Of a stretch of DNA of 34,271 bases, positions 9,314 to 33,939 are shown piece by piece. The stretch covers positions 1 to 34,271 of the forward strand of contig JAMDDD010000007.1 in NCBI GenBank assembly GCA_023489275.1. The letters run 5' to 3'. The stretch is from Actinomycetota bacterium. GTDB lineage: Bacteria; Actinomycetota; Thermoleophilia; BMS3ABIN01. Positions within the stretch are counted from its first letter, which is position 1, and each line of letters opens with the position of its first letter. The notes beneath the pieces are model-generated. The model was not told the DNA's origin. It searched no databases and was given only the letters and a program-made list of their open reading frames with translations. Both the position numbers and the translations under genes were made by a program.

Positions 9314-9350
9314 GGTTTTCTTTGCATCTACCCGATTGTTTTTTAATTTT

Positions 9351-9378
9351 ATCCAGAATCCGGCATCCGCAATCCAGC
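9351..9378. repeat. Heptad array A: ATCCAGA ATCCGGC ATCCGCA ATCCAGC
   Basis: Four in-phase heptamers sharing ATCC, immediately upstream of the aldo/keto reductase gene. Confidence 0.75.
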
Positions 9379-22936: not shown

Positions 22937-22942
22937 TTTATT

Positions 22943-22977
22943 AGTTCAAGGTTCCAGGTTCAAAATTCAAAGTCAAA
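22943..22977. repeat. Heptad array E: AGTTCAA GGTTCCA GGTTCAA AATTCAA AGTCAAA
   Basis: Five in-phase heptamers abutting the start codon of the amidotransferase gene. Confidence 0.75.
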
Positions 22978-23257
22978 AAAACTGTCAGAGGCGGTCTCTC
23001 TCCGGGCGCGGCAGCGGGCAATGATCTTTTCTGCTGCGATACGCGGATTTCCTGAAGGAAGAATTCCTCCCCGGACACCGGGACGGCGCCCCTCCATATT
23101 ATACATGAAGACAACATTGGCCAGACAGGGTGGCTCGCTCGGGCGGCATATTATTGCATAAAGGCGCGACAGCAGCAGGGAATCTGTCCAACTGGAGTAT
23201 AAACCAGCGGCGAAGGGATATTTTTGGCCGCTGGAGCCGATTTGGCCGGGTGTTAAT

Positions 23258-25634: not shown

Positions 25635-27683
25635 TTATCCAAACAAGCGGAACATCTGGTTGGCAAGACCGCCGACCAGGACGGCGAGGCCGATGGTAAA
25701 GCCGGAGATAAGCGCCGTGCGCGACCATCCCAACTCCTTGCCCAGCGCCGTGATCGTGGCCGCGCAGGGGATGTAGATCGCCGTTACCAGCGCAAAGACA
25801 AACAGCTGCGAATTGGTCATGATGAGGTTAAGGTTATGTTCAACCCCTTTGGAGGCCCCCATGCCTATCGCCAGGAGGACCAGCATCTGCAGCGTCAGCT
25901 CTTTGCGGAGAATGCCCATCACCAGCGCCAGCCCGGCCACCGCCGGCAGGCCCATCCAGTCCTCCATTACCGGCGACAGCGGCCGGACCAGGTCGAACAG
26001 GTAACCGCTCGCGTACAGGGCGCCGAGCGCCAGGCTGCCAATGATCAGGATCGGCGCCGCCATTAAGACAAATCCCTTAAACCGGAACCAGGTCTTCTTG
26101 ACCACTGTTTTAAAATGCGGCCTGCGGAAGGAAAACATCTCCATCACCAGCCCCGTCGACTTGCCCGGCATGATCCGGTTAAGACCAAGCCCGGCCAGCA
26201 CCCACAACGCCAGGACAATGGCATAGAGCCCGAGCGCCGCCTCCCAGCCGGCATAAAAGGCAACGGCGCCAAAGATGACCGCCGTGCGGGCGCTGCAGGG
26301 AACCATCACGATCAGCGTTCCCGCGATTACCCGCTCCCGCAGCGTCGTCAGCACGCGCGTGCCCATGATCGCCGGCACGTTGCAGCCGGCGCCGGCGACG
26401 ATCGGGATCATGGCGCGCCCGTGGAGACCAAACCGGTGCATCACGGCGTCGGTGAGAAACGCCACCGAGTTGAGGTAGCCGCTGTCCTCCAGAAACGCCA
26501 GCACGAAGTAAAAGACAAGGACAAACGGAACGCCAACGGTAAGCGCCGCCTCGAAGCCGTCCGGAATCCACATCAGCGACTGGCTGACTGCATTCTTGCC
26601 GATGACGGCGAAGAGGCCGCTCTGGACCGGCGGCAGCACGTAGCCTTCCCAGGCGTTGCTGAGCAGATCGGCGAGGCCGTTGCCGGCAAAGTACATCAGC
26701 ACGAAGATAATGCCAAGCACCCCCAGCAGGACAGGGACGCCGGTGACCGGTCCGGTAGTGTACCGCCACAGGCGCTCGCCCCAGCTGATCTGCCGATCAG
26801 TCTCGGCCGTCTCCACCTCGGAAGCGATAATGCCCGCGAGTCCATGCCGCTCGCCGGCGATGCGGATCGACGCCGGCTGGCCGTGCTCGGCCTCAATCTG
26901 CCGGCGCAGCCCGGCCGCCAGCTCAAGGATTGGCTCCCAGCCCGGCATCGCCTTCGTCAACCCGATATACTCCTGGTCGTTTTCCAGCAGCAGGAGCGCC
27001 ATGGCGCGGTAGGGCAGATCATGAGGATCCTTGAGCCCGGCGGCGGCGATAGCGGCGGTCAGCTCCTGGACCCGCCGCTCCACATCCTGGCCAAAGCGGG
27101 TGTCCGGCGGCTCCGGCCGGCGGCCGCTGCCGGCGGCGCGGACAGCGGCGGCGATCAGTTCTTTGAGCCCCTCGCCGCGGTTTGCCACCGTCGGCACCAC
27201 CGGCGCGTCCAGGAGGCGGGAAAGTTTTTTGACATCAATGTCGCGCCCTTCCCTCTTGGCCACATCGTAGACATTCAGGGCAACGACAACAGGATAGCCG
27301 AGCTCCATGAACTGCAGCGCCAGGTAAAGGTTGCGGGCGAGGTTGGTGGCGTCCAGAACGATGACCACCACGTCGGGGTTTCCCTCCAGCACACCCGTGC
27401 GGGCCACCCACTGATCCTCGGAAACGGCGCCCAGCGCGTAGGTTCCCGGCAGGTCGAAGATGCCGATGCGGGTGCCGTTCAGGGCGGTGGTGGCCACATG
27501 CACATCAACCGAGGTGCCGGGATAGTTGGCGGTCTCGACCCCCATGCCTGTGAGGCTGTTAAAGATGCTCGACTTGCCCACGTTGGGGTTTCCCGCCAGA
27601 GCGATGGTTACATCCGTGTCCTCACGAAGCTTGTTAAAGGTTTTATGACAGGACACTGGCACTATTTTGAACTCTGGTTTCAT
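25635..27683 (-). CDS. feoB: Ferrous iron transport protein B
   Basis: G1 ALAGNPNVGKSSIFNSLTG, DLPGTYALG, VLDATNLARNLYLALQ, nucleoside-recognition/gate domains. Start uncertain (ATG at 27681-27683 lies inside a heptad repeat). Confidence 0.96.
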   Translation of the reverse strand: MKPEFKIVPVSCHKTFNKLREDTDVTIALAGNPNVGKSSIFNSLTGMGVETANYPGTSVDVHVATTALNGTRIGIFDLPGTYALGAVSEDQWVARTGVLEGNPDVVVIVLDATNLARNLYLALQFMELGYPVVVALNVYDVAKREGRDIDVKKLSRLLDAPVVPTVANRGEGLKELIAAAVRAAGSGRRPEPPDTRFGQDVERRVQELTAAIAAAGLKDPHDLPYRAMALLLLENDQEYIGLTKAMPGWEPILELAAGLRRQIEAEHGQPASIRIAGERHGLAGIIASEVETAETDRQISWGERLWRYTTGPVTGVPVLLGVLGIIFVLMYFAGNGLADLLSNAWEGYVLPPVQSGLFAVIGKNAVSQSLMWIPDGFEAALTVGVPFVLVFYFVLAFLEDSGYLNSVAFLTDAVMHRFGLHGRAMIPIVAGAGCNVPAIMGTRVLTTLRERVIAGTLIVMVPCSARTAVIFGAVAFYAGWEAALGLYAIVLALWVLAGLGLNRIMPGKSTGLVMEMFSFRRPHFKTVVKKTWFRFKGFVLMAAPILIIGSLALGALYASGYLFDLVRPLSPVMEDWMGLPAVAGLALVMGILRKELTLQMLVLLAIGMGASKGVEHNLNLIMTNSQLFVFALVTAIYIPCAATITALGKELGWSRTALISGFTIGLAVLVGGLANQMFRLFG

Positions 27684-27722
27684 GTCTCTGGTTTCTGGTT
27701 TCCAGTGTCCGGCAACTAGACG
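27674..27722. repeat. Heptad array F: CTGGTTT CATGTCT CTGGTTT CTGGTTT CCAGTGT CCGGCAA CTAGACG
   Basis: In-phase heptamers covering the annotated feoB start codon. Confidence 0.8.
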
Positions 27723-27783
27723 GTGTTTGACATGTGTCTGACAAGTTATGATAGTTCAAGAAGAAAAATCTCGGGATCTTTTT

Positions 27784-27804
27784 TTGAACTTGAAACTGGA
27801 AACT
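27784..27804. repeat. Heptad array G: TTGAACT TGAAACT GGAAACT (inverted relative to array F)
   Basis: Runs into the stop codon of the DtxR-type gene. Confidence 0.75.
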
Positions 27805-28465
27805 ATTTTCCTTTCACCATGATCTTGGAGGCCACTTCCTGGCCGAGGGCATACTGGCTGCCGGCCACCCGGACCAGCATCGGCCCCCTGAAGGGAGCGA
27901 TCTCCTTTACCTGAATGCGGGCGTCGGGGAACAGCCCCAGCGTCGCCAGATATTGCAGAAGCTTCGGCTCCTCCTCGGCGACGCGCTCGATGACGCCCTC
28001 GTCGCCGACACAGAGGTTGGAAAGCGGGACGGCTTCCCGCTCCCTTTTCCGGGCGCCCTTGGTCCCCGGAATCGGAAAACCGTGCGGGCACGTATCCGGA
28101 TGGCCGAGGATGTCGGCGAGCTTTTCCTCCACTTGCGGGCTCATGGCGTGCTCCAGCTTGCAGGCCTCCTCGTGCACTTCGTCCCAGTCAAGGCCAAGGA
28201 CATCGGTAAGAAACCGCTCCCAGAGCCGGTGGCGCCGCACCAGCGTCTCGGCAGCCTGCTGCCCTTGCCTGGTCAGGTGGACGCCGTGGCGGCGGCTCAC
28301 CTGCACCAGCCCGTTCTCGGTCAGCCGGCGCAGCATGTCGGCCACCGTCGGCGGCGAGACCTTCATTCTCTCCGCCAGCCGTGCAGCGATCACGGGCCCC
28401 TCCAGGGACATTTTGTAGATCGCTTCCAGATATTCTTCTACGGCCTGTGTAATCACTTTGGGCAT
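27803..28465 (-). CDS. DtxR/MntR-family metal-dependent transcriptional regulator with C-terminal FeoA/SH3-like domain
   Basis: MPKVITQAVEEYLEAIYKMSLEGPVIAARLAERMKVSPPTVADMLRRLTENGLVQVSRRHGVHLTRQGQ; CKLEHAMSPQVEEKL; C-term LLQYLATLGLFPDARIQVKEIAPFRGPMLVRVAGSQYALGQEVASKIMV. Confidence 0.95.
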   Translation of the reverse strand: MPKVITQAVEEYLEAIYKMSLEGPVIAARLAERMKVSPPTVADMLRRLTENGLVQVSRRHGVHLTRQGQQAAETLVRRHRLWERFLTDVLGLDWDEVHEEACKLEHAMSPQVEEKLADILGHPDTCPHGFPIPGTKGARKREREAVPLSNLCVGDEGVIERVAEEEPKLLQYLATLGLFPDARIQVKEIAPFRGPMLVRVAGSQYALGQEVASKIMVKGK

Positions 28466-28509
28466 ATCAAACCCTCCGATAATCTTAAATGCGTCATCTA
28501 GGATTTATT

Positions 28510-28519
28510 AGACGCGTCT
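28510..28519. promoter_or_regulatory. Palindrome AGACGCGTCT in TTAGACGCGTCTTA, with a related GCGTC half-site about 20 bp away
   Basis: Upstream of the DtxR-type gene: AAATGCGTCATCTAGGATTTATTAGACGCGTCTTATTTTA. Confidence 0.4.
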
Positions 28520-28560
28520 TATTTTACATTAGTGGGCCGGCTATTACAAGGAAAAAGTCT

Positions 28561-28595
28561 CGAGTTCCCAGTCTCGAGTTTCTAGTTACGAATGA
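28561..28595. repeat. Heptad array H: CGAGTTC CCAGTCT CGAGTTT CTAGTTA CGAATGA
   Basis: In-phase heptamers between divergent DtxR-type and PHP genes. Confidence 0.75.
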
Positions 28596-28662
28596 CGCTG
28601 GTGGGATATGATAATTGCTAACTAATAATAACTAATAAATTCCTGCTTCCATCAAAGAACAA

Positions 28663-28676
28663 CCGGAAACCGGAAA
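28663..28676. repeat. Heptad array I: CCGGAAA CCGGAAA (inverted relative to array H)
   Basis: Ends two bases before the ATG of the PHP gene. Confidence 0.65.
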
Positions 28677-28678
28677 CT

Positions 28679-29473
28679 ATGATTTTACCTGACTACCATA
28701 TCCATACCCCGTTCTGCGGGCATGCCTCCGGCGACATGAAGGAGTATGTGGCGGCGGCCCGAAAGCTGGGGATGCCGGAGATGGGATTTGCCGACCATCT
28801 GCCGCTGTTTCATATCGACGACCGGACCCTGGCGATGAGCCATGAGGATCTGCCGCGGTACGTGGACCGCGTCCAGGCACTGAGGGAAGCCAACCCGGGA
28901 TTTACCATCCGCCTGGGCATCGAGGCCGACTACATCGCCCGGCATCTGGAAGACGTTGCCCGGGATCTGGCCCTTTACCCGTTCGATTATGTCTACGGCT
29001 CGGTGCATTTCATTGGCGACTGGGGCATCGACCAGTCCCGCTTTAAATTCGAGTTCGAGCGCCGCGACATCGACGAGGTCTACCAGATCTACTTCGAGCA
29101 TGTGATGGCGGCGGCGCGTACCGGCCTGTTTGATGTCATGACCCATCTTGATGTAGTCAAAAAATACGGCCACCGCCCCGCAGCCGATATCAGCAACCTC
29201 TACCATGAGGTGGGCGAGACGCTGTCAAAAAGCGACGTCGCCATCGAGCTGAACTCTTCGGGTTTGCGGAAACCCGTGGCGGAGATCTATCCGGGCCTGG
29301 AACTGCTCAAGATTATGCGGTCACACGGCGTGCCGATCACTTTTGGCTCAGACGCCCACAAGCCGTCGCAAGTTGGCAAGGATTTTGACAAACTGCGGGG
29401 ACATGCTCGCGCCGCCGGATATGAGGATTACGTCGGCTTCCAGGGTCGGGAGCGGGTGCCGAGGCCGCTCTAA
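28679..29473 (+). CDS. PHP-domain histidinol-phosphatase family protein
   Basis: DYHIHTPFCGHASGDMKEYVAAARKLGMPEMGFADHLPL, DYVYGSVHFIGDWGID, DVMTHLDVVKKYG, PITFGSDAHKPSQVGKDF. Confidence 0.93.
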   Translation: MILPDYHIHTPFCGHASGDMKEYVAAARKLGMPEMGFADHLPLFHIDDRTLAMSHEDLPRYVDRVQALREANPGFTIRLGIEADYIARHLEDVARDLALYPFDYVYGSVHFIGDWGIDQSRFKFEFERRDIDEVYQIYFEHVMAAARTGLFDVMTHLDVVKKYGHRPAADISNLYHEVGETLSKSDVAIELNSSGLRKPVAEIYPGLELLKIMRSHGVPITFGSDAHKPSQVGKDFDKLRGHARAAGYEDYVGFQGRERVPRPL

Positions 29474-29482
29474 AACAGTTTT

Positions 29483-29549
29483 CGGTTTCGAGTTTCCGGT
29501 TTCTGGTTTTGCGTCATGGACCTGGTAACCTGAAACTGGAAACCTGAAG
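29483..29549. repeat. Heptad arrays J1/J2: CGGTTTC GAGTTTC CGGTTTC TGGTTTT ... CTGGTAA CCTGAAA CTGGAAA CCTGAAG (inverted pair)
   Basis: Starts about 9 bp after the PHP gene stop. Confidence 0.8.
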
Positions 29550-29595
29550 AGCGATCACGAAAAATCCGTTTTATCCGGGATCTGCCTTTAATTTT

Positions 29596-30486
29596 ATGAA
29601 CCAGACTTTACCCTTGATTTTTAATCCCATCGCCGGCGGTAGCGGCCAGCGGAAGCTGCGACAGGCTCTCCAGGCGCTGGAAAATGAAGGCGCCAGCGTC
29701 GAGGTGCTGTCCACTTCCCGTGCCGGCTCCGCCACCAGCCTGGCTCGCCAGGCGGCCGCGAAAGGCGTCCGCCGCCTGCTGGTCGCCGGCGGCGACGGCA
29801 CCATCAATGAAGTCATCAACGGGCTGGCCGGCAGCGAGACGGAGCTGGCGATCATTCCCACCGGCACCGCCAACGTGCTGGCCCTGGAGCTGGGGGTGCC
29901 CTCTGAAATCGCCGCCGCCTGCCGCCTCGCCCGCGAATCGGCCAGCACCCGCATCGACCTGGGCCGCGCCGGCCGCCGTTATTTTACGCTAATGGCCGGC
30001 GTCGGTTTTGACGCACTGGTAATCAATAATGTCAACCCGGCGCTCAAAAGGTCCATCCACCGGGCCGCCTTTCCGGTCATGGGGCTGCTCACCTTTCTCC
30101 AGGCAGACCTGCCGCTCTTGACAGTCCGCTGCCGGGAATACGAATCCGAAGGTTATTTTGTCATCGTGGCCAATTCACGTTATTACGGCGGCAAGTTCGG
30201 GCCGACGCCAGAGGCAAGCATGATCGACGGGCGCCTGGATGTGTGCGTGCTAAAAGGCAAGAGCCTGCAGGAGATGCTTAACTTCTGGCTGGCGGCTCTC
30301 AGAAAAAACCAGGTGGACACGGCCCGGGCGGATTATTTCCAGGCTGATGAGGTCGAGATCATCTGTCCGGCCGGCCAGCCCGTGCCGGTGCAGACCGATG
30401 GCGAGATCATCGGCGAGCTGCCGCTCAAAGTCACCGTTGTTCCCTCAGCCCTCCGCGTCTGCGCGGGCCGGGAGCTAAATAATTGA
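29596..30486 (+). CDS. Diacylglycerol kinase family / YegS-like lipid kinase
   Basis: LIFNPIAGGSGQRKLRQALQAL, LLVAGGDGTINEVINGLAGSETELAIIPTGTANVLALELGVP, MAGVGFDALVINNV. Confidence 0.95.
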   Translation: MNQTLPLIFNPIAGGSGQRKLRQALQALENEGASVEVLSTSRAGSATSLARQAAAKGVRRLLVAGGDGTINEVINGLAGSETELAIIPTGTANVLALELGVPSEIAAACRLARESASTRIDLGRAGRRYFTLMAGVGFDALVINNVNPALKRSIHRAAFPVMGLLTFLQADLPLLTVRCREYESEGYFVIVANSRYYGGKFGPTPEASMIDGRLDVCVLKGKSLQEMLNFWLAALRKNQVDTARADYFQADEVEIICPAGQPVPVQTDGEIIGELPLKVTVVPSALRVCAGRELNN

Positions 30487-31166
30487 TCACGCCGGCGCGG
30501 CTTGTGGCCATTATTACGCAGCTCGAGCACGGGTACGGACGTCCCGAGTGGCGGCCGCGGTTTTCTCCGCTGGAGGAACTGGTGTTCACCATCCTTTCTC
30601 AAAACACAACCGATGCCAACGCGGACCGGGCGCTGACGGGGTTAAGGAAAAGATTTCCCTCGTGGGAGAAAGTCGCCGCGGCTCCCCCGGGGAAGATCGC
30701 CGCTGCCATCAGAACGGGCGGACTCGCCGACACCAAGGCACGGTACATCCGTGAGACCCTGGCGGGAATTCTGCGGGAAAAAGGCGACCTCTCCCTGAAC
30801 TTCCTGAAGCAGATGGGTGACGGTGACGCGATGGCCTACCTGACTTCCTTTACCGGCGTCGGCGTCAAGACGGCCGCCTGCGTGCTGCTGTTTGCCTTCG
30901 GCCGGCCGGTGATGCCTGTTGACACGCACGTTTTCCGTGTCACAAAGCGGCTGGCTTTTCTCGGTCCCCGCGCCACCCGCCTCAGCGCTCACCGGATCCT
31001 TGCCGCCATCACGCCGCCTCCGGATGTTTACAGTTTTCACATCAACCTGGTCAAACACGGCCGCCAGGTCTGCAGGGCCGGCCGGCCGCTGTGCGGCCGC
31101 TGCGTCATTGAGCCTCTCTGCCCATCCAGCATCGCGAAGGAGCCGCCGCTTCGGCCTGAACCTTAA
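30483..31166 (+). CDS. Endonuclease III-like DNA glycosylase (HhH-GPD, [4Fe-4S])
   Basis: LVFTILSQNTTDANADRAL, LTSFTGVGVKTAACVLLFAFGRPVMPVDTHVFRVTKRL, C-x6-C-x2-C-x5-C cluster; TTG start overlaps previous TGA. Confidence 0.93.
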   Translation: MITPARLVAIITQLEHGYGRPEWRPRFSPLEELVFTILSQNTTDANADRALTGLRKRFPSWEKVAAAPPGKIAAAIRTGGLADTKARYIRETLAGILREKGDLSLNFLKQMGDGDAMAYLTSFTGVGVKTAACVLLFAFGRPVMPVDTHVFRVTKRLAFLGPRATRLSAHRILAAITPPPDVYSFHINLVKHGRQVCRAGRPLCGRCVIEPLCPSSIAKEPPLRPEP

Positions 31167-31362
31167 GACTGCCGGAGGAGCGCGAATCGCCGATTTTTCC
31201 TCCTTGCCTGCCGCCGCCGGAAAAGTCCCGTTTGCTTTTCGAGGGATAAATGGCTGAAAATGTTGCGTTGCGGGCCATCCGGGAGACCGCTAAAATTTTG
31301 CTTCACCACTAATATAATGATGCCGGCAGGGGGCGCGGCAGAAATAGCAAGGAGACACTTCC

Positions 31363-31794
31363 ATGATGCTCGTTCCCCATGCCTGCGTGAACGCGGCCGC
31401 CGGCCGTCTGATAAAAAGGCCACTTGCGGCCTTCACCATCGGTGTCGCCGCTCATGCTCTCCTTGACATGACCCCGCACAAGGACATTTCCGCGCATAAG
31501 GCCGAGGGGCTGGCCGTCCTGCTGATACTGGGGCTGGTGGGGAGCAGTTGCGGCTGGTCCTCCCCGTCTTTTTGGTGCGCCATGGGGGGCGTGCTTCCCG
31601 ACGTGGAACAGGTGCTGCCCTGGACCGACCCGAAGCGCGGACGCCACCGCTGGTTCCCCACGCACAACCCAAGATTTCACTCTTTCGCGGCAAACCGGTG
31701 GCGGGCGCCACTGCTGCTGCAATCAGCGGCGTCCCTGGCGGCCCTGGGCGCCGCCGTGGCGCGTTGCCAAAAAACCAGTGTTTCGAGTTGCTAG
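31363..31794 (+). CDS. Hypothetical membrane-associated protein (possible metal-dependent hydrolase-like)
   Basis: 143 aa with HALLDMTPHKD and hydrophobic segments; GGAGA-type RBS; C-terminal residues KTSVSSC encoded by heptad repeat DNA. Confidence 0.7.
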   Translation: MMLVPHACVNAAAGRLIKRPLAAFTIGVAAHALLDMTPHKDISAHKAEGLAVLLILGLVGSSCGWSSPSFWCAMGGVLPDVEQVLPWTDPKRGRHRWFPTHNPRFHSFAANRWRAPLLLQSAASLAALGAAVARCQKTSVSSC

Positions 31795-31851
31795 TTCCTG
31801 GTTGACCCAATTGAATGTTTTAGCTAGAAACTCGAAACTGTAAACTCGAAA
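31776..31851. repeat. Heptad arrays K1/K2: CAGTGTT TCGAGTT GCTAGTT CCTGGTT ... CTAGAAA CTCGAAA CTGTAAA CTCGAAA (inverted pair)
   Basis: GTTTCGAGTTGCTAGT versus reverse complement of GCTAGAAACTCGAAAC (GTTTCGAGTTTCTAGC): 14 of 16 match. Confidence 0.8.
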
Positions 31852-31878
31852 TCTTATTATTAAACGACCGGAGGAAAA

Positions 31879-32961
31879 TTGGATATCCTGAATTCAACTA
31901 TTTCATCAGTCAAGCCTCTCGATGAGACCGCCATCCAGGCGGCCCGCGAGCGGCAGGACCAGCTCACCAAACCCCAGGGAAGCCTGGGCGTTCTGGAGTC
32001 CCTGTCGGTGCAGCTGGCCGGGATTCAGGGCCGCGCGCTGCCGGTGATCGGCAAAAAAGTGATCATCGTCATGGCGGGCGACCACGGCGTTGTGGCTGAG
32101 GGCGTCAGCGCCTTTCCCCAGGAGGTGACGCCGCAGATGGTGGCAAACTTCGCCGCCGGCGGCGCCGGCATCAACGTGCTGGCCCGGCACTCCGGGTGCG
32201 AGGTCAGGGTGGTTGACGTGGGCGTCGCCGCGCCCGTCGAAATCGACGGCGTGCTTTCCCGGAAGGTGCGTCCCGGTACTGCCAACATCGCCGCCGGTCC
32301 GGCGATGAGCCGCGAGGAAGCAGTTGCCTGCCTCGAGGCCGGCATCGAGGCAGCCGCAGCGGAGATTGCCGCCGGTGCCGACTTGATCGGCACCGGCGAC
32401 ATGGGCATTGGCAACACGACTCCCAGCAGCGCCATCCTCGCCGTGCTCTCCGGGGTCCAGCTTCAGCATGCCGTGGGCCGTGGCACCGGCATCGGCGCCG
32501 AAGCGCTGGCCCACAAACGGGAAGTCATCCGGAGGGCTATTGAAATCAACTCCCCCGATCCCGGCGACGGCCTCGACGTGCTCGCCAAAGTTGGCGGCCT
32601 GGAGATTGGCGGCCTGGCGGGGGTCATACTGGGCGCCGCCGCCGGCCGGGCGCCGGTTGTCATCGACGGATTCATTTCCACCGCCGCCGCGATGGTCGCG
32701 GCGAACCTCTGCCCTGCCAGCAAGCAATACATGATCGCCTCCCATGCCAGCGTCGAGCCGGGCCACCAGCTGATGCTGGATGAACTGGGCCTGAAGCCGA
32801 TGCTGTTTATGGACATGCGCCTGGGCGAGGGCACCGGCGCGGCCCTGGCCGCCAGCCTGGTGGAAGCCGCCGCCAAGGTGCTGACGCAGATGGCCACGTT
32901 TGCCGAAGCCGGCGTTGCGGAAAAGAACGGAGAAGCGCCCGCAAAAGAGGCCGGAGCCTAG
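31879..32961 (+). CDS. cobT: Nicotinate-nucleotide--dimethylbenzimidazole phosphoribosyltransferase
   Basis: DQLTKPQGSLGVLESLSVQLAGIQG, MAGDHGVVAEGVSAFPQEVTPQMVANFAAGGAGINVLAR, GTGDMGIGNTTPSSAI; TTG start with GGAGG upstream. Confidence 0.96.
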   Translation: MDILNSTISSVKPLDETAIQAARERQDQLTKPQGSLGVLESLSVQLAGIQGRALPVIGKKVIIVMAGDHGVVAEGVSAFPQEVTPQMVANFAAGGAGINVLARHSGCEVRVVDVGVAAPVEIDGVLSRKVRPGTANIAAGPAMSREEAVACLEAGIEAAAAEIAAGADLIGTGDMGIGNTTPSSAILAVLSGVQLQHAVGRGTGIGAEALAHKREVIRRAIEINSPDPGDGLDVLAKVGGLEIGGLAGVILGAAAGRAPVVIDGFISTAAAMVAANLCPASKQYMIASHASVEPGHQLMLDELGLKPMLFMDMRLGEGTGAALAASLVEAAAKVLTQMATFAEAGVAEKNGEAPAKEAGA

Positions 32962-32997
32962 AAAAAGGCATGGAGTCGGAGGGACCGGGGTGCGCCC

Positions 32998-33939
32998 GTG
33001 AAAATATTCCTTACGGGGGGATCGGGATTTGTCGGCAGGCACCTGGCCACGGAGCTGGCCAGTCGCGGCTACGAGCTGGCCTGTATCGTCCGCGCCGGTG
33101 ACGGCAGCGGCGCCGCATTCCTGCGGGGTCTCGGCGCCAGCGTTACATCCGGCAGCGTCACCGACCCGGCTTCGCTGGAAGGCGCCGCCGAGGGAGCGGA
33201 GGCGGTTATCCACCTGGTGGGAATCATCCTGGAGGGGCCGGGCGCCAGTTTTAGCCAGGTTCACGTGGAAGGGACCCGCAACGTGCTGGCGGAGGCAAAG
33301 CGCGCCGGCGCCGGCCGGTTTATCCATATGAGCGCCGCGGGCGCGGCGCCGGCCGCGGTCAGCCGCTACCTGGGAACAAAATGGACGGCGGAAGAAGAGG
33401 TCCGGGCCAGCGGTCTGAGCTCAACGATTTTCCGGCCCTCGATCATTTACGGCCCCCGCGGCGAATTTATCCGCATGCTGATCCGCCAGGTGCGCCTCCT
33501 GCCGGTAGTGCCGGTGATCGGGGACGGACGTTACCGGCTCCAGCCCGTCTCCGTCTTCGATATCGCCCGGATCTTTGCCGACTCCCTAACAAATCCGAAA
33601 ACTATCAACAAGGTTTACGCGGCCGGCGGGCCGCGCTCTCTTTCCTATAACGAGATGGTGGACGCTATCGCTGCGGCCATGGGCAAGCACCGGCTGAAAC
33701 TGCACCTGCCGGCGGCGATGATGAAGCCGGTGGCCGCCGTCGCGGAAAAGGTCATGCGCAGGCCTTTCGTTACGCGGGACCAGATCAACATGCTGCTTGC
33801 GGGAAACACCGTTGACATCCAGGCCATGAGGACAGATTTCGGCTTTGAGCCGGTCGAATTCAAGGATGGCATCAGGCCGCTGATCGAGACCTGGCGGCGT
33901 CCCGGACCACGGACGAGGCCGGGGCTCTATTTGTTATAA
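32998..33939 (+). CDS. NAD(P)-binding epimerase, complex I NDUFA9-subunit-like
   Basis: [86 protein letters not shown]. Confidence 0.93.

Follow-up and report, generated by a model that had tools for sequence, protein, structure and literature searches.

Inverted heptamer arrays of several motif classes at gene junctions of a Thermoleophilia genome and its relatives

Why should short runs of 7-nt repeats, paired in opposite orientation, recur between successive genes of an actinobacterial genome? The window considered here, the whole stretch of 34,271 nt analyzed from contig JAMDDD010000007.1 (GCA_023489275.1), raises the question at four places, where a preliminary description had reported arrays of GTTTC-type heptamers followed by GAAAC-type heptamers. 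The arrays are located where that description put them, and all of them belong to what we call class A below. F (27674..27722, clear over 27677-27711), H (28561..28595, degenerate), J1 (29478..29517, clear over 29483-29517), and K1 (31776..31803, clear over 31781-31803) have the GTTTC sense on the plus strand and are clear, as are J2 (29522..29549) and K2 (31824..31851), the inward arms with that sense on the minus strand. G (27784..27804, minus strand), the partner of F, has about 2.5 units, and I (28663..28677, minus strand) has only two, directed inward near the PHP ATG; G is weak on its own and I is too short for significance alone. The flanking genes need their strands added, in that feoB and the DtxR-type gene both lie on the minus strand, so the pair F/G separates tandem genes and H/I falls between the divergent DtxR-type and PHP genes. 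Read on the minus strand, F is a GAAAC-type arm directly before the feoB start, and G begins within, and overlaps, the TAG stop codon of the DtxR-type gene (TAGTTTCCAGTTTC). J1 starts 4 nt past the PHP stop codon, and K2 lies before cobT. K1, described like the others as intergenic, is not purely so: it overlaps the 3' end of gene 31363-31794 and supplies its TAG stop and last residues. The same set has a member that had been passed over, a class B-type array at 22937..22978 (plus strand; GTTCAAGGTTCCAGGTTC), and a probable member in a class C-type array at 9334..9375 (plus strand; ATCCAGAATCCGGCATCCGCAATCC; 20/35 lag-7 matches). In the window alone, the top lag-7 stretches are J1, H, F, and the site at 22937, each with 23/35 matches; maxima at other lags reach 22 to 25, so this periodicity, taken by itself, is suggestive to moderate.

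The genome-wide evidence comes from 179 kb of intergenic DNA within 904 kb (about 57%) of the source genome (1.577 Mb, 45 contigs, 92% complete), with genes called by a simple codon model. This DNA holds 73 strong lag-7 arrays, against 0.4 in dinucleotide shuffles. There are 38 arrays at lag 14 and 0 to 6 at non-harmonic lags, and the coding DNA has 5 at lag 7. Moreover, the pattern GTTTCNNGTTTCNNGTTTC, with at most two mismatches, matches the source genome 228 times (119 + 109), against 57 (26 + 31) for the reversed pattern, some of whose matches are class B arrays. The preliminary description held that its loci would be chance if intergenic DNA showed no lag-7 excess over shuffled sequence; the excess is there, and the dispersed intergenic family with inverted pairing that it proposed is far beyond chance genome-wide. 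Heptamer arrays are confirmed as a real, genome-wide feature. Since the portions read of this genome and of the congener G004 (29% of its genome) were partly picked for class A matches, the counts are not unbiased densities; shuffle and permutation tests were run within the same DNA, where the picking bias is smaller.

The arrays fall into four motif classes, defined after inspection of the data: A (GTTTCNR), B (GTTCMAR), C (GGATNYT, which is ATCC-type on the opposite strand), and D (GTTTMAY, first noticed in relatives). The GTTTC motif is thus present as first described, but as one of at least four classes rather than the sole type. No consensus of classes A to D contains a G-tract of at least 3. 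Conservation of the class A core ranges from 71 to 94% by position and is 90-94% at positions 1-3; position 6 is near random. Between species the class A core differs at 4/108 and the spacer at 14/44 (pooled p 0.02), a comparison biased by the requirement that both copies fit the motif. The left arm of a full element has about 3-6 heptamers and is followed by a short centre and an inverted right arm of the same class. Outside class A arrays the left flank is rich in A and the right flank in T; AAAA occurs within 12 nt in 60/156 and TTTT in 7/156, the A-run being partly stop-codon context. Among 144 regions there were no pairs of at least 50 nt at 85% identity or more, and no recent copies of elements were found.

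Arm order and class matching are the most regular features of the elements. In the source genome, 33 class A pairs have the GTTTC-type arm first and none is reversed, as the preliminary description had it for its four; class B pairs run 6:0, class C pairs run in mirror order at 0:2, and over all classes the ratios are 57:9 and 46:5 in two species. Both arms belong to the same class in 46 of 57 elements of the source genome (24.3 expected, p<1e-4) and in 39 of 46 of the second species (15.7 expected, p<1e-4). The potential to form a hairpin, ascribed earlier to every pair, is borne out for class A as a group, with a mean z for predicted folding of -3.3 against shuffles over 16 elements and values below -2 in 14 of them. 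It also holds for J (z -3.0), where J1 and J2 give a predicted hairpin of -31.1 kcal/mol, and for K (-2.15), but not for F/G (-1.5) or H/I (-0.29), the latter folding no better than shuffled sequence. The pairing does not depend on particular partners: within class A, own arms pair at -23.6 kcal/mol and exchanged arms at -24.9 (permutation p 0.97). Since swapped arms pair equally well, a hairpin conserved base by base is unsupported. The combination of class-matched arms with absent covariation within a class indicates that it is the motif class, not the single base, at which complementarity is kept or arises. The evidence for a folded RNA is mixed.

The arrays are placed with reference to stop codons. 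The left arm starts 0-7 nt past a stop codon in 38/47 and 33/41 cases, about four fifths; distances to gene starts are affected by the uncertainty of starts in our own gene model. Arrays occupy 114/379 (30%) of tandem intergenic regions and 14/74 convergent and 16/80 divergent ones (19-20%), and the tandem regions divide into 46 with both arms, 25 with the left only, and 43 with the right only. They occur between essential ribosomal-protein genes of the S10-spc operon, and gene pairs that are closely coupled or overlapping carry none. A weaker Shine-Dalgarno sequence behind arrays was considered and dropped, the difference being small (34% vs 45% with at least 4 matches).

Comparison by synteny with relatives, the named ones being metagenome-assembled Thermoleophilia or Actinomycetes, revealed that sites persist while motifs change. 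At 161 junctions syntenic between the source genome and G004 (94.7% median protein identity), arrays stand in both genomes at 33, in one only at 8 and 11, and in neither at 109 (odds ratio 41, p 1.6e-17), an agreement that may in part arise because not every junction offers space for an array. Of the 33 shared sites, 16 have the same class, 15 have switched, and 2 are unclassified. At several sites both arms have switched together, among them C36:341 (from A to D) and two that went from A to B, C29:1592 and C25:29966. At the F/G and H/I sites of G004 it is class B that scores highest, and a class B array stands at I; J is missing there, the PHP stop and DAGK start overlapping as TAATG. At S10-spc junctions shared among congeners the array may be of class A, B, C, or D depending on the species: rpmD-rplO has A, B, D, and D in the four species compared there, and at rpsQ-rplN three species have A, B, and D. 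Five congeners have arrays in the ribosomal-protein operon and a sixth is nearly free. Congener G005 has compact junctions and is without arrays over the 40 kb analyzed and over 5.3 kb of intergenic DNA, so that any function of the arrays would be dispensable. Kept sites with swapped motifs suggest that the precise sequence is less important than its mirrored layout.

We favor, tentatively and with slightly less than even confidence, the reading that these are intercistronic inverted heptamer elements acting as a hairpin-forming spacer in mRNA, for which any motif class suffices. The left arm begins at the upstream stop codon and the right arm, a reverse complement of the same class, runs towards the next start. 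On a polycistronic mRNA the arms would fold back into an imperfect stem of about 5 bp per 7 nt, and this stem would separate neighboring cistrons without terminating transcription. It might shield the upstream 3' end, guide cleavage, or limit coupling. Any class would do because two complementary periodic arms count, not their letters. What keeps this reading ahead is that occupancy persists through class switching and that arms are class-matched; counted against it are the equal pairing of swapped arms, the many one-armed regions, and the absence of arrays from G005.

A selfish or neutral origin, in which elements are repeatedly inserted or rewritten at the only sites that tolerate them and are useless to the cell, is a serious possibility, to which we give about one chance in three. 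The lack of arm covariation within a class and the array-poor congener keep it strong; the empty, compact junctions of G005 and of J in G004, the K array that has replaced an original stop codon, and the patchy occurrence of the exact class A pattern in the phylum (14 of 397 sampled genomes) all point the same way. It leaves the fixed order and the class matching to be explained, and it sits poorly with sites that stay occupied through class switching. Nor is there a sign of a mobile agent. Beyond the lack of near-identical copies, the Y1 transposase PF01797 was not found in the 92% complete source genome, with positive controls matched, and no reverse transcriptase was found in six congeners. 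These negatives led us to reject both a REP/REPIN system with its RAYT, which should show that transposase and near-identical dispersed copies, and repeats templated by a reverse transcriptase. The five array-bearing congeners and the one nearly free of arrays offer a natural comparison between function and neutral turnover.

We think it unlikely that the arrays are rows of binding sites on mRNA or DNA in which each heptamer takes one domain of a protein. Cold-shock domains bind about 6-7 nt, and the constant 7-nt spacing with a strongly conserved core and a nearly random spacer speaks for such sites; the spacers of consecutive units are barely more alike than those of random units (17.5% vs 12.7% agreement). 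However, since four motifs can replace one another at a given site, several proteins would be required, and a binder of single strands needs no inverted, class-matched arms. PF05635 (23S rRNA IVP/four-helix bundle), which we take to be a neighbor of such arrays, gave no match, but neither did its control, so this does not show its absence.

Slightly less likely again is a machinery that starts at either side of a junction and writes heptamers of one class towards the middle, junctions staying filled while the letters are interchangeable. Both ends of a break, for example, might be extended by a process that is error-prone in the spacer, and each such event would leave two arms of the same class in fixed order that are not copies of each other. 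If true, inward writing would account at once for the order, the class matching, the lack of base-level complementarity, and the class switching. End joining by Ku was rejected as a candidate, Ku being present in four congeners and not found in two that bear arrays.

Transcription terminators or pause signals, a hairpin followed by a T-run, are very improbable. The A-rich left and T-rich right flanks do resemble a bidirectional terminator, but the A-run is in part stop-codon context, and arrays separate genes within the ribosomal-protein operon and are rarer at convergent than at tandem gene pairs. In a terminator scan J and K were unmatched and H overlapped a short 6-pair match. We accordingly do not count the arrays among intrinsic terminators, and the punctuation raised in the preliminary description is unsupported if taken to mean transcription termination. 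Equally improbable, and already disfavored, are ordinary microsatellites made by polymerase slippage: heptameric repeats are over-represented among bacterial simple repeats, for which slippage has been suggested (PMC4692102), and perfect arrays exist in some relatives (GTTTCGA in G002, GTTTCAG in G292), but slippage would give identical neighbors, whereas the spacers here are almost random with the core kept, and it explains neither the inversion nor the order nor the class matching.

Intergenic heptamer repeats are known from several bacteria, and no explanation of them has won acceptance. The closest are those of Xanthomonas, where Rehm et al. (2015) described degenerate, mostly intergenic GGGAATC arrays, alongside GGGGAYT arrays of Nostoc (PMC4692102). 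Many of the Xanthomonas arrays face each other as inverted pairs (70 cases among 186 patterns and 75 among 183). They lie close behind the upstream ORF, favor tandem genes and are depleted between divergent ones, and in two species recur at matching gene pairs while varying widely in sequence and length (PMC4692102). Our arrays are likewise degenerate, intergenic, and tandem-biased, with opposed pairs beside the upstream ORF. The Xanthomonas repeats have one G-rich motif, GGGAATC, discussed as a G-quadruplex, the shared feature proposed there (PMC4692102). In contrast, the present arrays have four motifs, without G-tracts and without the GGGNATC signature of a quadruplex. As these four motifs replace one another at shared positions, the 7-nt period and the inverted arrangement, rather than any one motif, should hold the explanation. 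Particular to the present arrays are the class-matched arms, the class switching at orthologous sites, and, within the ribosomal-protein operon, arrays that directly abut stop codons. We read them as a multi-class kind of heptameric intergenic inverted repeat, nearest to that of Xanthomonas, with other motifs and with class switching. The TAACTGA repeats of Beggiatoaceae, cyanobacteria, and Bacteroidetes (MacGregor 2015; PMC4679880) are also intergenic heptamers, found in ribosomal-protein operons as well. They have one exact motif in mostly perfect units, with one inverted set among 170, lie mostly upstream of starts, and have been proposed to act at the RNA level (PMC4679880). They are exact direct repeats; ours have other motifs and inverted arms. 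The preliminary description named the cyanobacterial STRR as nearest analogue, and STRR heptanucleotides of Calothrix are cited in the Xanthomonas study (PMC4692102); the inverted Xanthomonas heptamers are closer.

The STRR of cyanobacteria are short tandemly repeated heptanucleotides, dispersed in the genome, and in this they resemble our arrays. We know of no description of inverted class-matched arms or stop-codon anchoring for STRR. REP, BIME, and REPIN sequences are likewise dispersed, palindromic, and intergenic, operons included, but they have no heptamer periodicity, and REPINs accompany a RAYT (Y1) transposase. The window had no Rfam match at the gathering threshold, and a literature search on the array sequences gave nothing on bacteria.

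Several observations concern the genes around the window arrays. The DtxR-type regulator (27803-28465), which adjoins feoB, has a C-terminal FeoA domain and is likely an iron regulator of the feoB locus. Gene 31363-31794 encodes a conserved 143-aa protein without a Pfam match, with orthologs in four related genomes. The G004 ortholog likewise ends within its array (...KKTSF, then stop), and those in L104 (G005) and L108 end without one. Over 29596-33939, protein identity to G004 falls from the 95% of PHP to 72% for DAGK and HhH-GPD and 85% for cobT and the epimerase-like gene, then recovers to 96%; the small gene 31363-31794, within this low-identity block, is 94% identical. This makes a mosaic block, which suggests allele replacement. 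Although identity falls from 95% (PHP) to 72% (DAGK) across J, we discarded the idea that arrays mark gene replacements, identity jumps genome-wide being no larger at arrays.

Beyond the genus, a distant actinobacterial genome has at L192 (G292:C16) a long, near-perfect (GTTTCAG)n of about a dozen units. A longer class A pattern was found in 119 stretches of viral contigs, where 20 inverted pairs run one way and 14 the other. Class A as a whole thus has no fixed order, and arm order is specific to lineage. In the viral collection, class A inverted arrays at L209, L247, L269, and L283 flank a similar central stem of the CCAAGCC ... GGCTTTG type, and are apparently a separate dispersed hairpin family.
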